Source: Candidatus Scalindua sp. SCAELEC01
Lineage (GTDB): Bacteria > Planctomycetota > Brocadiia > Brocadiales > Scalinduaceae
Assembly (NCBI GenBank): GCA_004282745.1
Contig: SHMT01000013.1
Coordinates: 62,001-126,000 of the forward strand
Direction: 5' to 3'
DNA length: 64,000 nucleotides
The notes under the pieces were generated by a model, which was given only the letters and a program-made list of their open reading frames with translations, searched no databases and had not been told where the DNA came from. This document shows, in pieces, positions 23,417 through 31,015 of this stretch. A program made the position numbers and the translations under genes. The number at the start of each line of letters is the position of its first letter. Within the stretch, counting starts at the first letter, position 1.

Positions 23417-23844
23417 TTAAATTAAGGTACGGAAAAAAGTGATAGTATAAATGCATTGCACCTTTAATTTCAAGTACTTATTATAACCGATGAAGTCACT
23501 GTCTACTGTGAAAATACTGAGCTTTTCAAGATTTGAAACAGAGCAAATTAAGAAATCAGTTGTTGATCCTTGAATTCCATTTTTGCGATATAAATTACTT
23601 AATTCTGCTGCTTTAACAAAGTGATCTGTTTTTAAAATAATATCTTCAAAAAAGACAGGGTATGTTTTAGTTTATTAAACTGCGAGGGATTTGAAATACC
23701 AGAAAGAAGTTCCTGTCTGATAGGTCCAATAATAACGATTCTCCCATCATCGATAAAATCTTTTAGTTGATTTGTAAGATTTAAATTTGGAGTCTTTTTT
23801 CTTAATACTTGAGACCAGATGCAAGTATCCATCAGAATTTTCAT
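23417..23844 (-). pseudogene. vapC: VapC-type PIN-domain toxin, frameshifted
   Basis: The frame starts MKILMDTCIWSQVLRKKTP (PIN domain first Asp) and passes IVIIGPIRQELLSGIS, then ends prematurely after LSFLKILF. A one-base shift at the A-run 23648-23653 (T-run on the coding strand) restores the rest: FEDIILKTDHFVKAAELSNL, YRKNGIQGSTTDFLICSV and IFTVDSDFIGYNKYL, including the later acidic residues of the nuclease site. The gene is therefore complete apart from one indel in a homopolymer. It may be a true null allele, a phase-variable state or a sequencing error. The start overlaps the vapB stop (ATGA). Confidence 0.75.
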
Positions 23845-24038
23845 CTTTTTCTGGCCTTTTTATAGTCAAAATTTTTATCAAATTCGATACTACCAAATAA
23901 ATCAAGTACTTCTAATTGTTTTTTGTGAGCAATGTATTCCTTCAGTGCTGTTGTCACCGTTTCTTTTTTTGTTTTATGATGTCCAATTTTTTGAGCTTTA
24001 ATTATTAATTTATCATCTATATCCAAATTTGTTGCCAT
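23841..24038 (-). CDS. vapB: VapB-type antitoxin
   Basis: The 65-residue protein reads MATNLDIDDKLIIKAQKIGH then HKTKKETVTTALKEYIAHKK, the ribbon-helix-helix pattern of VapB antitoxins (DUF2191 type), and ends in a basic toxin-binding tail. The second ATG (24038) is chosen because GGAGGTGG lies directly before it; an ATG 12 bp upstream is part of that site. The stop overlaps the vapC start. A TGTGT/ACACA dyad near 24053-24080 may be its operator. Confidence 0.82.
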   Translation of the reverse strand: MATNLDIDDKLIIKAQKIGHHKTKKETVTTALKEYIAHKKQLEVLDLFGSIEFDKNFDYKKARKR

Positions 24039-24173
24039 AACCACCTCCATTCACACAAATAGTAACACAACTACATGTGTGGGCAAAGGTCTGAATTACA
24101 TCCTCATCACCGTCAGCAAAAAACAGAGCGAGGAACGAGCGGCGCTTTTTGCTGTCCGTGTGTATCTGATTGT

Positions 24174-25005
24174 GTGTGCCCGGCGTGAGCATGATCTTAT
24201 GAGGTGAAAGTTCTCTGTACATTTCCGGTAAGGAGTCATGTAGTGACTATAACAAAAAGTACTATACGAAGGCAAGGGCTAAAGGGTGACCTGAGGTTTG
24301 AAGGAAACCTGCGAGTCAAGCCTGCCCCGGACTTGATCCGGGGGGCAGAAATCGCATATAAGGCCGAACTCCTAGGCGAGGGAGCACAACATTCCGAAGC
24401 CCGTCCGGAGAACATGGGGATGGTAAATGTGACAATTGTGCAGGGAAAGATCATGCAATCAATTGCTAAGATTTTCGAATCCATTTTTAACACAAATTAC
24501 TCGGATTTCAGCTACGTTGACGATCTGGCGGTCTTTGTCAAGTCAGAGCGAGCGGGTAACAGGGTCATAAAAAGTATTACAAATTACCTGGAGAAGAAAC
24601 TCAAGGTAACCGTGAATCGCAAGAAAAGTAAGGTCCGAAAAGTTAGAGAGAGTGCTGTATTGGGTTTCCATATCCATTTCAAGAAACTGAGAACAACTGA
24701 GCCCAAAGTTCGGACAAAGGAGGCTATTAATATGGTTCTCAGTCGGAAGAGCTATTGGCGTCTCTCAAAAACTTTGGCTACCAATTGCGGTTTGTCCAAT
24801 GCGACTTTTGAGAAAGAAGGGCTCATCTCCATTCGAGAGCTATGGTGCAAGGTTCATCATCTGGCTACGGCCCGATAGACACTTGATATGGAATCGGCTT
24901 GTCCGAGGAAATACTCTGTGATAAACAGGCTAGGCGCCAAATACAGACCCGTATGTTTGGTGCTGTGGGAGGGAGCCGCTAGAGCGGATTCCTATCCCGA
25001 TTATG
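24174..25005 (+). mobile_element. Internally deleted group II intron
   Basis: The 5' end resembles the bacterial group II intron start: GTGTGCCCGGCG at 24174, then GAGGTGAAAGTTCTC. The 3' part has the domain V-VI pattern (CCCGTATGTTTGGTGCTGTG, GGAGGGAGCCGC, then CCTATCCCGATT at about 24990-25005). A typical element is 2-2.5 kb; only about 830 bp remains, because most of the reverse transcriptase gene between the 5' domains and the YVDD motif is missing. A CCCCGGACTTGATCCGGGG palindrome sits inside at about 24328. It cannot be mobile by itself. Exact ends are estimates. Confidence 0.65.
24425..24878 (+). pseudogene. Remnant of a group II intron reverse transcriptase/maturase
   Basis: The reading frame (open from about 24204) contains FSYVDDLAVFVKSERAGNRV, the RT active-site motif (YVDD), then the downstream LKVTVNRKKSKVRKVRESAV and LGFHIHFKK region and a maturase-like KSYWRLSKTLATNCGLSNATF...LISIRELW. 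The first RT motifs (fingers, motif A) are absent. The protein is therefore the C-terminal half of an intron-encoded protein inside the deleted intron. It ends at TAG, and the domain V-like sequence follows. Confidence 0.7.
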
Positions 25006-25655: not shown

Positions 25656-25780
25656 ACATAACGTCCTGCATAAGCAACCACCGCCTGTGCGCAATGCTTG
25701 TAAGAGAGGCTTAAAGCGGCAGCCTCAATAAATATTGAATCGAGTAGTTTTTGGTGGTTGGCTTAATGCGCTTGTTATGT
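25656..25780 (-). other. Integron attC recombination site
   Basis: Read on the minus strand, the 125-bp site runs from ACATAACAAGCGCATTAAGC to GCTTATGCAGGACGTTATGT. The outer boxes are perfectly inverted (ACATAAC / GTTATGT), the inner boxes are GCATTAAGC and GCTTATGC with one extra unpaired base on one arm, and further pairing (CCAACCACC / GGTGGTTG) continues inside. The unpaired base and the core GTTATG are hallmarks of attC. The stop codon of the gene at 25775 lies in its first box, the normal gene-cassette layout. No integron integrase is in the window. Confidence 0.8.
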
Positions 25781-26065
25781 GCTTTCTTTTACGTGCTGTT
25801 CCCACCACTGTTCGCTTTTTCCCGAAAACTCAACAAAATCGAGTGTATTAGTATAGTAAACTGAATAACCTGGGTCTGTGTTGAGTGTTTGAATCGCACC
25901 AACCAATGGCTGGTTTCTTGTTTTTCTCCATTGCCTCGGACAATCAATAACTACAGGTGTTACTTCGGATAAACCCCCAGGCTTCAGATGTTTTTCATAA
26001 TGCAAAAAGCAATCAGCCCTAAACCCGCCATTATACGGTTCTTCTAAAAGTATTGCATAGTGCAT
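25775..26065 (-). CDS. Gene-cassette protein of unknown function
   Basis: The product reads MHYAILLEEPYNGGFRADCF, with CPRQWRKTRNQPLVGAIQTL and ending WWEQHVKEST. About 96 residues; I do not recognise the family. The start at 26065 is preferred, because upstream codons up to 26086 run into the terminal repeat of a RAYT element. The element may therefore have displaced the original promoter and perhaps the first codons. The gene stops inside the attC site that follows it, so it is a complete, solitary cassette ORF. Confidence 0.65.
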   Translation of the reverse strand: MHYAILLEEPYNGGFRADCFLHYEKHLKPGGLSEVTPVVIDCPRQWRKTRNQPLVGAIQTLNTDPGYSVYYTNTLDFVEFSGKSEQWWEQHVKEST

Positions 26066-26078
26066 GGTGCATGTGCAT

Positions 26079-27103
26079 GGGGTCAAACCTTGATCTGTGA
26101 TTTAATCATTGTTATTCTTTCCTTGATCTTATAATCTTTAGATTTCATGATAGTTACTCGACGACTTATAGATGAATAACAAAGGCCAAATAATTTACCA
26201 ATCTCCTGATTGCTATACCACCCTGTACTCCATAAAAAATAGATTAATATATCACGATTGTATTTATTTTCTTCGCTTATCCTTGAGGATTGTATAAAAT
26301 CATTTGTATTACACTTTAATACCTCTGCCGCTTTCTTCAGAAGTGATTCAGGGTTGGTATTTCTTAATACCTGACGCTTTTGTGGGACTTCAACATCAGT
26401 TTTTTCTGTCAAATATTTAGACCTTATTTGGTCGACAAATTTCTGGGAACCCAAAATAATACCGTGTCGAAAATCTTCCCATATCCTCTTCTCTTCCTTG
26501 GAATAGCTTTGCACTATTTCCCTGTATGCTTTGTGCTTCTCTTTTGTCTCCACACATGAAAAGATAGGCCCCGTACATAACCACTCCGGTGACTTCTTCC
26601 CATAAGCATAAATTGGATAACTGCTCCATGGATAATCTACTAATCTCCTGACAATTCCGACCCGCAACGGATTTCTATGAATATAGCAAGAAAGCCGTAT
26701 TAGGTATTCATCATTTTCGATGAGAAAGTTTTTGAAGCGTCCTTGAAACAAGTGACCGCTTCGCTTATGCTTTACATTGTATCTACGTGTATAAGTAGTG
26801 CCAAACCATTGCATGCTTTTAGAGATATTGGAATTATTGGTTTTTAGTAGCAAATGATGATTATCCATAAGAACGTATGCATAAACCTCAACATCAAACC
26901 TGTCAGCCATACTTCCTAAAGTCTCTAGAAACAAAATACGATCGTCACTATCCTGAAAAATATCCCTTCGCTCATTACCGCGTGATAAGATGTGATAATA
27001 AGCTCCCTTATACTCTATGCGCCATTGTCTTGCCATGGTAGGCAAGGTATCACAAACCACCTTTAATCGTCAAGCATATAATCACATATCAAGGTGTGAC
27101 CCC
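26079..27103 (-). mobile_element. RAYT (IS200-like) element with inverted ends
   Basis: The left end GGGGTCAAACCTTGAT and the right end, inverted, GGGGTCACACCTTGAT flank the transposase gene; together they form terminal inverted repeats of about 22 bp with two mismatches. The unit is 1025 bp. It has inserted between a gene-cassette ORF and a reverse transcriptase fragment. Confidence 0.7.
26083..27036 (-). CDS. REP-associated tyrosine transposase (RAYT, Y1 family)
   Basis: The protein of about 317 residues begins MARQWRIEYKGAYYHILSRG and has the Y1 HUH pattern: NERRDIF, the HUH pair LMDNHHLLLKT, and GHLFQGRFKNFLIENDEYLI. The stretch CYIHRNPLRVGIV and the C-terminal helix-turn-helix (NQEIGKLFGLCYSSISRRVT, DnaA C-terminal-like) are typical of long RAYTs. 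Such proteins act on REP-like hairpins as single-strand transposases. ATG 27036 is chosen because the conserved MARQ(W)RIEY start is there; the frame stays open 24 bp upstream. The catalytic Tyr is likely in the region after the HUH motif. It looks intact. Confidence 0.85.
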   Translation of the reverse strand: MARQWRIEYKGAYYHILSRGNERRDIFQDSDDRILFLETLGSMADRFDVEVYAYVLMDNHHLLLKTNNSNISKSMQWFGTTYTRRYNVKHKRSGHLFQGRFKNFLIENDEYLIRLSCYIHRNPLRVGIVRRLVDYPWSSYPIYAYGKKSPEWLCTGPIFSCVETKEKHKAYREIVQSYSKEEKRIWEDFRHGIILGSQKFVDQIRSKYLTEKTDVEVPQKRQVLRNTNPESLLKKAAEVLKCNTNDFIQSSRISEENKYNRDILIYFLWSTGWYSNQEIGKLFGLCYSSISRRVTIMKSKDYKIKERITMIKSQIKV

Positions 27104-27469: not shown

Positions 27470-27803
27470 ATTCTCTCCTCTTCGGGTGTGGTTGGCCTAG
27501 TGATAATTGATTCTGGCGTACAAAATTATTGTATTGTTTCTAGATAGCATCACTATTGTAATGATATCCAGTGTTAGAAACCAAGTAATCTATACTGTTT
27601 TCGTTAATTTTCAGATTTAAAAACTCAAGGACTGTATATGCTGCCTACACACCATAAAACCAGTTTCTTCCTTAAAAGCAGGCTCATTCGACAATCTTTA
27701 TTATTTTAGAGACTAATACCATATACATGTGATAAAGACATTCCCTGTTGACATGAACGGGCAATTGGATATTATTACCGTTGTGGTATTTTGCAGAACT
27801 TTA
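27470..27803. other. Gene-free stretch upstream of the RT operon
   Basis: No coding frame that I can support. It would contain the promoter of the deleted amidohydrolase (minus strand). It is AT-rich. No repeats were recognised. Confidence 0.5.
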
Positions 27804-27913
27804 TAATGCCCAGGATGAGAATCTCTTGGCTATTAATATTTTTAGTTATGCAACGTTCGGCCAACAAGCGGATTGAGCAGTCTCAAAAAATGCGCTCCTC
27901 ATCCTGGGCATTA
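27804..27913 (+). ncRNA. Candidate structured RNA upstream of the RT operon
   Basis: TAATGCCCAGGATGAG (27804-27819) and its perfect inverted copy (27898-27913) enclose 78 bases that contain a small hairpin (TTGAG-CAGT-CTCAA, 27873-27886). A 16-bp perfect closing stem of this size is unlikely by chance. It lies 69 bp before the start of the methyltransferase-fold/RT operon, where several RT defence systems carry their template or guide RNA. The inner part also contains GGCCAACAAGCGGATTGAGC, resembling half of an attC. Transcription is unproven, and it could instead be a MITE-like or cassette relic. Confidence 0.4.
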
Positions 27914-27982
27914 GCTCACCATGAATTCAGAGTTACATGTGTATATTTTTATTTGAAATCGAATATATTTTAAGGTAAAGCA

Positions 27983-28939
27983 TTGACAAAACGGTTCATT
28001 AAATCTAGTGACATTCCATCTAGCTTGTGGTGTAAAAAGTCAGAGAATATTATACTTCCCATAAAGTTGGTTGAGCTATGGAAAGGCTTGTTGGAAAAAA
28101 ATAACTTGTTAGGTTTAGCTGAAAAAATTGCTCCATCAGGCTTTGAGGGTGGAATATCTAAAGAAGACACTGATAAGCACTTAGCTTGGCGCTATAACGG
28201 TTCTTGTGCCAGAGTATTACTGTCTGTTTTAGACCCTAAGCACAAGTTGTCTGATGTTTCTGATGCTTATGCATCAATATTCGCTGGCAATAAAGTTTTT
28301 CTATCAGATCTCCCAAGTGGTTCTGGTGCTGCCATAGTCAGCATACTATGTACATTGTTTGAATTAAGAAAGCACAATGTGCTTCCAAGGCACCCATTAA
28401 ATATAAGCATTATTGCTGGCGAGATTTCTCCTACTGCAAAGATTTACTTAAAAGAGCAATTAGAGAATTTGACACCCTTCCTTGAAGAACAAGCGATTTG
28501 GATTGAATTCGAAATTGTTGAATGGGATACATTAAGCAAAATAAGTACAGTAGATCTCATCAGGAAAATAACAATTTCAAGCCAACATTCTACAGCAAAG
28601 CTGCTGATCTTGAGTAACTTTACAGGGTTTCTTGTTAATTCTGGAAAATGGGAAAAAGCGAAACCTCAGTTTGATGATATCTTTCTCCACAGTAGAGATT
28701 TACTAAGTACATTGATATGGATTGAGCCACAAAGAAAAAATGTTGTCAATTTTTTCAAAAGAGCAATCGAATGGCTTAAAGTTTCTTTCAGTCCTTTATT
28801 AGGTTCAAAATTGACGAGAGATGATAGCAGTTGGTATGCGCAAGCAGATATATTCTGTAAACAACCGATTAAAGATGGATATTTTCTAGTACGGCTTACA
28901 GTAATGAGGTTTGATTTACCGCTGGAGGTACAGAAGTGA
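27983..28939 (+). CDS. Methyltransferase-fold protein paired with a reverse transcriptase
   Basis: The 318-residue protein starts with TTG after an AAGG site. Its middle looks like a class I SAM-dependent Rossmann fold: a glycine-rich motif I (LSDLPSGSGAAIVSIL, residues 107-122), an acidic end of strand 2 (IIAGEIS, Glu147), IEFEIVEWD (174-182) for strand 3, LLILSNFTGFL (207-217) for motif IV, and LIWIEPQRKN (244-253). The last resembles Rsm22-like proteins. Helices at the N-terminus (residues 25-100) are unlike standard methyltransferases. It overlaps the RT by 4 bp (stop TGA and ATG/GTG overlap), so the two are surely co-translated. Function is unknown; a role in modifying RNA or nucleotides for the RT is a guess. 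Confidence 0.7.
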   Translation: MTKRFIKSSDIPSSLWCKKSENIILPIKLVELWKGLLEKNNLLGLAEKIAPSGFEGGISKEDTDKHLAWRYNGSCARVLLSVLDPKHKLSDVSDAYASIFAGNKVFLSDLPSGSGAAIVSILCTLFELRKHNVLPRHPLNISIIAGEISPTAKIYLKEQLENLTPFLEEQAIWIEFEIVEWDTLSKISTVDLIRKITISSQHSTAKLLILSNFTGFLVNSGKWEKAKPQFDDIFLHSRDLLSTLIWIEPQRKNVVNFFKRAIEWLKVSFSPLLGSKLTRDDSSWYAQADIFCKQPIKDGYFLVRLTVMRFDLPLEVQK

Positions 28940-30651
28940 GTAACGAACTTGCAGTGAAAGCTTTAAATCAATATAGAAAAAGGGATATTTTCCCATATTT
29001 AGGTTTGCGCTACTATCTAGAAAGTTCGACTGGGAGACAAAGTCGTTGGATAAAGAACGTTTGCACAAGGTTAACAACCGATGTGGTGCATTCCAGCTAT
29101 TTGAAAACTTACCATTTTAAAGAATTCTCAAATGGTGGTTTTTTACATCGAGACATTTATTTACCTGCGCCCAATGAAATATTGTCCGAAGCTGCGCTAA
29201 TATCAGAGATTTCAAAGTATGATTCTTTCAAACCCAAGCCATATGTCTATAGTTATCGTTTTTCTAAAAAAAACGAGAAAAGTGGTGTTTTTCAACCATA
29301 TTTTAACGGATTTAAGGAGAGGCATAAATCCATTGCAGACGCATGCCGAAGCATTGAAGGTGGAATCGTTTTATATACTGATATTAAGAAATTTTACCCT
29401 AGCATCAAATCGGTAGATGCGTTAACGACGTGGGAGCGCTCGTGCGACAATTCGGATATTGATGATAAATATAAGCGTTTAGGCAGGGAAATACTTAAAA
29501 AGCATGAAAGTGTGAGTCTTTGTGATGGGACTTGTAATGGAGTTCTAACAGGCCCATTATTTAGTCATGTCATTGCCAATCTATTGCTTGACCAAACCGA
29601 CATCCAAATGTATGAAATTTCTAAAGGAAAATATTGGCGATATGTCGATGATGTGGTTTTTGTTGGAACTAATGATGAAGTTGCTAAGTGGCGAGAGCTA
29701 CTTGGGGAGAAATTTTTTAAATTAAACTTAGAACTACATGATGGGGATAAAGATTTTCAAGTCTCTTGTAAGGATTGGCTAGAAGGTGAAGATGACTTCG
29801 ATAATACCTTCGGAATTGAGTGGATTTCTTTAATCAGTGGTGTAAAAAGATTTTTAATAGCGAATCCATCAAAAGCCAAAGAGCTTCAAGAGTCTTTTAA
29901 GGACGATCATATTCGAATCCCGGTTATCGATTATACAAACGCGGTTAAGGAATCAACATACCTACAAAGATTTCAAGATTGGATGGGAAAATATAAATGG
30001 GCAATAAAATCAGTTAAGCCCATTACTATTGAGCGATTGTTAAATCAGGCAAAAAAGTGTGAGAAAGTATTCAAGTTAAAGCTGGATGTTCTTTTAAATA
30101 AGGGAGAACCCGTCTCCATTTATGAAGGAAAAAGGTTTACTCTAAAACTGAGATACCTATCAGGTCGGCTTCTATATTTATTAAGCAGACAAGAATTATC
30201 TAAACTATATCCGAAGCTTGAAGTTCGACCAGAACTCTATTTCATAGCAAAGACTATGGAAGCCGTTGCAACTAGAGATATATCTCTTGTTTTACATATG
30301 GGTGTTGATGCAACTCATGCTGCAGCACAATTATTAAGGGTCGACCAAGGAATAGTCACAATAAGTAAAGATACTAAAACTTCCTCTGTTTTTGAACAAT
30401 CGTTGGCTGTATTGGAAATAAATGGCGTTGAGCATGACTTTAAAGGTTCTGAAACTGAATTAAAGTCTTTTGCGACGGCAGAAAATATTAGTAAATTAAT
30501 GAGTTCTCCAAATGGATTTATCAAAGAAGTTGCTTGTTTGCATGGAATACTGCCTTCGAGACACCAAGAAGCTTTGGATAGCAGTTTTGATAGAGACGAA
30601 GAGCTATCTCTGGATATTCTTAATCAATTACAAAAATCAAGTCATTGTTAA
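28936..30651 (+). CDS. Unassigned reverse transcriptase, likely defence-type (UG/DRT-like)
   Basis: The 571-residue protein has the catalytic RT motifs: motif A YTDIKKFYPSI (residues 147-157, Asp149), motif B region GVLTGPLFSHVIANLLL (202-218, with TGP where QG is commonest) and motif C WRYVDDVVFVG (234-244, Asp238 and Asp239). There is no intron maturase, HNH or retron thumb signature. The last 230 residues (from about 340) are a long alpha-helical region, as in UG/Abi-type RTs implicated in anti-phage defence (DRT systems). The first residues (YRKRDIFPYLGLRYYLE) are also helical. It is intact, unlike the RT scraps nearby, and follows a methyltransferase-fold gene with a 4-bp overlap. I could not assign it to a numbered UG group. 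Confidence 0.85.
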   Translation: MSNELAVKALNQYRKRDIFPYLGLRYYLESSTGRQSRWIKNVCTRLTTDVVHSSYLKTYHFKEFSNGGFLHRDIYLPAPNEILSEAALISEISKYDSFKPKPYVYSYRFSKKNEKSGVFQPYFNGFKERHKSIADACRSIEGGIVLYTDIKKFYPSIKSVDALTTWERSCDNSDIDDKYKRLGREILKKHESVSLCDGTCNGVLTGPLFSHVIANLLLDQTDIQMYEISKGKYWRYVDDVVFVGTNDEVAKWRELLGEKFFKLNLELHDGDKDFQVSCKDWLEGEDDFDNTFGIEWISLISGVKRFLIANPSKAKELQESFKDDHIRIPVIDYTNAVKESTYLQRFQDWMGKYKWAIKSVKPITIERLLNQAKKCEKVFKLKLDVLLNKGEPVSIYEGKRFTLKLRYLSGRLLYLLSRQELSKLYPKLEVRPELYFIAKTMEAVATRDISLVLHMGVDATHAAAQLLRVDQGIVTISKDTKTSSVFEQSLAVLEINGVEHDFKGSETELKSFATAENISKLMSSPNGFIKEVACLHGILPSRHQEALDSSFDRDEELSLDILNQLQKSSHC

Positions 30652-30745: not shown

Positions 30746-31015
30746 ATGGAGCCAAGCAAAGAATTTCAAATAATCCCCGGTGTCGGGAAAAGTCTAAGCA
30801 AAGATTTTGTTGATTTAGGATATCAAAAAGTAAATGAGCTAAAAGGTGAAAATCCGGAGACAATGTATCAAAACCTGATGGCGTTACGAGGGCATCACAT
30901 TGATCGCTGTGTGTTGTATGTTTTCAGGTGTGCCGTTTATTACGCTAGTAATTCTGTCCAAGAACCAGAATTATTGAAATGGTGGAACTGGAAGGATGGA
31001 AAACAAAAAAAATAG
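30746..31015 (+). CDS. Cdd1-type helix-hairpin-helix protein
   Basis: The 89-residue protein is built on IIPGVGKSLSKDFVDLGYQK, a helix-hairpin-helix DNA-binding motif, followed by VNELKGENPETMYQNLMALR and the highly typical HIDRCVLYVFRCAVYYASN and LLKWWNWKDG. This matches the small 'pathogenicity locus' (Cdd1) family. Its biochemical role is not established. Its 3' end overlaps the permease gene by 20 bp, so the two are in one transcript. Confidence 0.82.
   Translation: MEPSKEFQIIPGVGKSLSKDFVDLGYQKVNELKGENPETMYQNLMALRGHHIDRCVLYVFRCAVYYASNSVQEPELLKWWNWKDGKQKK

Follow-up and report, generated by a model that had tools for sequence, protein, structure and literature searches.

A UG36-group reverse transcriptase and its constant upstream partner as a probable two-gene defence module in Candidatus Scalindua

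The two genes and the proteins they encode

The window, by which we mean the whole stretch of 64,000 nt that was analysed (Candidatus Scalindua sp. SCAELEC01, GCA_004282745.1, contig SHMT01000013.1, positions 62,001-126,000 of the forward strand), carries two intact genes that overlap by 4 bp (GTGA), as had originally been described, and a plausible ribosome binding site can be recognized by eye 5' of each (Table 1). The downstream gene encodes a reverse transcriptase (RT) and the upstream gene a protein, referred to here as the partner, for which a methyltransferase fold is predicted.

Table 1. Features of the pair and its surroundings in the window, and of two cyanobacterial loci
Feature	Position	Strand	Remarks
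VapBC-like pair	23632..24050	-	assigned by eye; vapC frame stops at 70 aa
Group II intron remnant	24204..24878	+	Rfam group-II-D1D4-3 at 24280-24457, with overlapping RT fragment
attC-like site	25657..25782	-	at end of the following ORF
103-aa ORF	25775..26086	-	
109-bp element	27805..27913		terminal inverted repeats AATGCCCAGGATGAG/CTCATCCTGGGCATT
Partner gene, methyltransferase-fold protein (predicted)	27983..28939	+	TTG start, 318 aa
Methyltransferase motif I, DLPSGSGA (consensus DxPCGSGA)	28307..28330	+	P111, G113, G115 invariant 17/17
Acidic E147, end of strand beta-2	28421..28423	+	D or E in 17/17 homologues
W181-D182, conserved acid at strand beta-3 end	28523..28528	+	W 17/17, D 16/17
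NFTG (consensus NFSG), motif IV position	28616..28627	+	N 14/17, F 16/17, S 15/17, G 14/17
WIEP strand of partner	28718..28729	+	W246, E248, P249 invariant 17/17
UG36 RT gene	28936..30651	+	GTG start, 571 aa
RT motif A, YTDIKKFYPSI, catalytic D149	29374..29406	+	D149, Y154, P155 invariant 18/18
RT motif B region, TGPLFSHVIANLL	29548..29586	+	H211 invariant 18/18, P207 17/18
RT motif C, YVDD, catalytic D238 and D239	29641..29652	+	invariant 18/18
C-terminal all-helical domain of RT, about residues 294-547	29815..30576	+	AlphaFold2 secondary structure and long Foldseek alignments
Cdd1 protein (PF11731, 'pathogenicity locus')	30746..31015	+	small; directly 3' of the pair
DnaQ-type 3'-5' exonuclease-like gene	L012:11743-12420		about 15-30 bp 3' of the pair
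DnaQ-type 3'-5' exonuclease-like gene	L013:11733-12410		about 15-30 bp 3' of the pair

The RT had been placed among enzymes of the UG/DRT type and left unassigned within them. The placement stands, while the RT can now be assigned to a catalogued group, because the PADLOC profile RT_UG36 (PADLOC-DB, PDLC03775) spans the protein end to end (E 2.3e-208, 691.6 bits, residues 1-569 on profile positions 1-556 of 557) against 60.4 bits for the second-best group, UG35, with lower scores for UG17/DRT10 (50.6 bits) and Drt3a (45.6 bits). The RT is thus a full-length member of UG36, an assignment that we regard, jointly with the obligate pairing described below, as practically certain; divergent homologues match the UG36 profile only (E below 1e-30). 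Motifs A, B and C are intact, as first read, and tyrosines Y21, Y107, Y154, Y233 and Y236 are invariant in the homologue alignment, with Y55 near-invariant. The lack of maturase, HNH and retron features was borne out: Pfam returned RVT_1 below threshold and nothing else, no maturase, HNH, nitrilase or phosphohydrolase domain being found, and the models for retron RTs (36.6 bits against a cut-off of 235) and for group II intron RTs/maturases (32.8 bits against 300) scored far below their cut-offs. The long helical C-terminus, another feature of the original prediction, is seen in the AlphaFold2 model of the RT (pLDDT 88). Class 1 UG/Abi RTs carry an alpha-helical HEAT-like repeat C-terminal domain, and the hallmark of class 3 is a fused nitrilase or phosphohydrolase domain. 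The solved chains nearest to the RT in Foldseek searches were DRT6, DRT4, AbiA, UG15, Abi-P2 and AbiK, and long structural alignments, at 12-15% identity, were obtained with DRT6, DRT4, AbiA, Abi-P2 and AbiK, the helical domain resembling the helical repeats of Abi/DRT polymerases; the best fold matches are class 1 enzymes, with modest TM-scores.

The partner matched no Pfam, NCBIfam or PHROG family, and a profile search of the PDB with it gave no match. An AlphaFold2 model built from 13 natural sequences had a pLDDT of 91.1 and a pTM of 0.92, and the top Foldseek matches of this model against the PDB were mostly class I SAM methyltransferases (E about 1e-5, probability about 1), with modest TM-scores of 0.25-0.5 and no single close family; with scores of this size, any ranking of relatives within each fold is provisional. 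On this modelling the partner is a protein of the class I SAM-dependent methyltransferase fold, Rossmann-like, with GxG in motif I and an acidic residue closing strand beta-2, the latter being the typical contact to the ribose of SAM, and the SAM-type Rossmann pattern first noticed in the upstream gene is thereby upheld. Predicted SAM binding may not be universal in the family, since D109 of motif I (D or E in 14 of the 17 homologues) is replaced by Y in three from Arcobacteraceae. Motif IV of DNA amino-methyltransferases reads DPPY or NPPY, and C5 enzymes carry a PC motif. The partner has neither (D/N)PP(Y/F) nor PC at its motif IV, and none of 13 partners matched a Pfam DNA-methylase family; because these motifs are missing, a protein or RNA target of methylation seems likelier than DNA bases. 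The suspected resemblance to Rsm22 was not sustained: hhalign against a shallow alignment of five Rsm22 homologues, of which one came from this genome and the other four from relatives, gave a probability of 4.5% over 42 columns around motif I, and PF09243 was unmatched in all 13 partners. Kinship with type I HsdM was also considered and set aside, the shared part being a 14-column motif only.

A link between the partner and a second RT group emerged from the PADLOC profile RT_UG35, which has 938 positions. All 13 partners tested match its N-terminal part, the best match being that of locus L022 (E 1.6e-12, residues 10-221 on positions 3-202), and the UG36 RT of the window matches positions 404-594, so that UG35 reads as partner and RT in a single chain. 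Judged from these profile coordinates, UG35 appears to be the two modules naturally fused, with their order matching that of the genes. A search of 392 Planctomycetota genomes found no UG35 homologues, and the controls were silent in that search as well.

Conservation of the pair and its genomic surroundings

UG36 loci were gathered by whole-genome profile searches, one GTDB contig scan and one plasmid search. They came from Planctomycetota, Pseudomonadota, Cyanobacteriota, Verrucomicrobiota, Elusimicrobiota, Campylobacterota and Riflebacteria, together with a Chloroflexota copy cut by a contig end, and the pair is present in at least seven bacterial phyla. Among these loci are L009 of Gilvimarinus sp., L014 of Rhodoferax sp. 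and L016 of Chthoniobacter flavus. The partner lies immediately upstream of the RT on the same strand in every UG36 locus with upstream sequence (18/18; L008 and L018, cut by contig ends, are outside this count). Seventeen of these pairs, that of the window included, are intact and one is frameshifted in a metagenome assembly (L010); the spacing of the two genes ranges from -43 to +5 bp and is mostly -4. Among 398 genomes of one class, five gave a match to the RT profile; the partner profile matched four of these and no other genome, the remaining one being that of L008. Pairwise distances of RT and partner are strongly correlated (Mantel r 0.967, reached by 0 of 10,000 permutations), and the trees of the two proteins agree in their two deep groups and in most of their sub-groups, which cut across phyla. 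The constant upstream partner, the shared genomes, the correlated distances and the matching trees together indicate that the pair travels and evolves as one unit, as had been supposed when the two genes were first read as one system; a lack of joint conservation, named at the time as what would speak against it, is not what these loci display. The nearest relative of the window pair is from a gammaproteobacterium (66% identity for the RT and 71% for the partner), and the identity of the window pair to those of other planctomycetes is 21-26%. One locus, from Aliarcobacter faecis, is plasmid-borne. Viral contigs yielded no relatives of the partner and only weak relatives of the RT; of the two that were profile-scored, one was assigned to UG17 and one matched general RT models only.

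Known defence genes, as recognized by PADLOC profiles, adjoin ten UG36 loci by raw count, and the pair, whose conservation beside defence genes in other genomes had been put forward as a check, often lies in such neighbourhoods. These neighbours are IetA (L003), HsdS with LmuAB of Lamassu (L004), PDC-S68 (L006), HsdM (L007), AbiE (L011), an Argonaute-associated nuclease with a DinG-like helicase (L015), a type I restriction system with AbiE (L017), type I restriction (L019 and L022) and HsdS with OloB (L020). The scan with defence profiles covered loci other than L009, L010, L012-L014, L016 and L021, around which the genes look ordinary. The Arcobacteraceae pairs of L004 and L020 are near-identical and both lie near a type I HsdS, with different intervening defence genes (LmuAB versus OloB). 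The two cyanobacterial pairs are closely followed by a DnaQ-type exonuclease-like gene (Table 1), which is possibly a third component in that lineage.

The surroundings of the pair in the window had been described as an island with vapBC, hicAB, an attC cassette and RAYT, and this description holds in part. Around the pair are found hicAB, a RAYT-type transposase, a truncated vapC-like frame and the remains of a group II intron; Pfam confirmed HicB and the RAYT-type Y1 transposase, and HicA weakly. The vapC toxin is probably broken, given its early stop, and the attC-like site adjoins a different ORF, on the minus strand, and does not mark the methyltransferase-RT pair as a cassette. No restriction genes were found in the stretch of the window examined. 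The integron and toxin-antitoxin context of the window is incidental and partly degraded. Eleven more attC-like stretches occur at scattered positions in the genome, and contig C22 encodes an integron integrase that scores above the NCBIfam cut-off. The Cdd1 gene that follows the pair was not seen beside the other UG36 loci. A hairpin at 27800-27920 (fold z-score -3.5) was considered as an ncRNA or attC and rejected, as it coincides with the 109-bp element, which has about ten further copies elsewhere in the genome (74-94% identity) and resembles a mobile element of the MITE or REP-like kind; being one copy of a genome-wide repeat, the hairpin is placed outside the UG36 system.

Proposed mechanism and alternative explanations

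We favour the explanation that the two genes form an anti-phage module belonging to the UG36 group of UG/Abi RTs, and give this explanation as a whole a probability of roughly 0.6. That the pair serves defence, a conclusion drawn partly from the neighbouring defence genes, appears very likely. Those class 1 and class 3 DRTs that have been studied to date work without a template, and protein priming has been shown in several (PMC13275509, PMC13174585); the class 3 enzyme DRT1 uses a serine primer, and its DNA synthesis controls a fused nitrilase (PMC13275509). By analogy, the UG36 RT, with its palm fold and helical C-terminus, would most likely make single-stranded DNA without a nucleic-acid template, synthesis starting from a priming residue of the protein. 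The upstream subunit, with its predicted class I methyltransferase fold, would bind SAM and be dedicated to the RT. As in class 3 DRT1, the DNA-bearing RT would probably control whether the methyltransferase assembles or is active, and the methyltransferase might then act as effector or regulator during infection. Direct contact of the partner with the RT, and which of the two proteins is the effector, are matters that we infer. This detailed scheme of protein-primed DNA synthesis with a coupled methyltransferase-fold effector or regulator is offered tentatively, our confidence in it falling somewhat short of even. A bolder version, in which UG35 and UG36 would together make up a separate kind of defence RT whose template-free DNA synthesis would switch on a SAM-dependent methyltransferase as a killing or blocking effector, is speculative and in our view rather unlikely; were it true, these would be the first antiviral RTs working through methylation or SAM consumption.

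The closest competitor gives the two proteins other roles: the methyltransferase-fold protein would not be an effector but a permanent regulator that modifies the RT (at a residue used for priming or one on the surface, for example) or its DNA product, silencing the RT until infection, and the DNA itself would be the toxin. DRT4, which together with DRT6 is the nearest solved fold of the RT, acts via random single-stranded DNA without an enzymatic partner (PMC13213688), and the strict pairing and tight overlap of the genes are just as compatible with a role like that of a chaperone or an antitoxin; class 3 DRT1, however, needs its linked enzyme for defence (PMC13275509). No feature of the sequences appears to separate this reading from the one we favour, and we judge it unlikely. 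Class 2 UG/Abi systems carry an ncRNA in cis (PMC13174585, PMC12632851), and the RT might be an ncRNA-templated enzyme of this type (like DRT2, DRT9 and DRT10) whose partner acts on the ncRNA or cDNA. The second-line PADLOC scores, which include UG17/DRT10 and Drt3a, point this way, but the ranking of folds favours class 1 polymerases, and an ncRNA of class 2 type is unlikely because there is no intergenic room for it at L015 and L020, where the pair overlaps the gene before it and another gene begins only about 20-50 bp after it, and because conserved flanking non-coding sequence was found among UG36 loci only between near-identical or sister loci. Moreover, the window stretch has no Rfam match to an ncRNA of this type, and the sole strong hairpin noticed beside the pair is the genome-wide repeat described above. 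An ncRNA template might still lie within a coding sequence or at some other place in the genome; overall we consider a class 2 mode of action improbable.

Could the pair have a housekeeping or mobile-element function instead? The ordinary-looking genes around L009, L012-L014, L016 and L021 would suit such a function, but the pair is rare and patchy (5/398 genomes), its RT tree departs from the phyla, it has no transposition or intron features and ten of its loci adjoin known defence genes, so that this explanation is quite improbable. Several loci lie inside or beside type I restriction operons, as would be expected of a partner that is a DNA methyltransferase or self-mark enzyme serving those systems. 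Against this, 13 members lack the DPPY and PC motifs as well as any match to a Pfam DNA methylase, other loci including the window are without restriction genes in the stretch examined, and pairing with the RT is found in every locus; such a role is hardly credible.

Comparison with known systems

UG36 is already a catalogued group, although no model in PADLOC-DB names a partner gene for it and the partner matches RT_UG35 weakly. The original prediction had stated that it would be undermined if the RT belonged to a known class with this same protein as its usual partner, and this is in part what was found, since the RT falls in UG36, whose constant neighbour is that protein. The RT literature searched does not mention UG36 and contains neither an experiment on it nor the nature of its partner; the UG/Abi survey of Mestre et al. 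(2022), outside that search, may list this neighbour. The interest of the present analysis lies in the partner: UG36 is given an obligate second component, the likely fold of that component and a tie to UG35. As a compact two-gene operon, the pair also offers clear sites for mutation in motif I of the partner and YVDD of the RT.

Unusual modes of DNA synthesis, with an output particular to each group, have been found in several DRT groups, and UG36 can be set beside them. UG35, whose N-terminal region matches the partner and whose RT region is second best for the window RT, appears from its profile to be one fused protein, whereas UG36 consists of two genes. DRT4, DRT6, AbiK, AbiA and Abi-P2 are the nearest solved folds of the UG36 RT with its helical C-terminal domain; DRT4 and DRT6 are, however, described as single-gene systems (PMC13213688), whereas UG36 pairs its RT with a partner gene. 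DRT10/UG17 resembles UG36 in being an operon of RT and partner protein found in defence islands, but it needs an ncRNA and a partner with a SLATT domain (PMC12632851), neither of which was seen in UG36. DRT1 couples an RT and helical repeats to an enzymatic domain, and UG36 appears to do likewise; in DRT1 this domain is a nitrilase fused at the C-terminus and in UG36 a predicted methyltransferase-fold protein supplied by a separate upstream gene.
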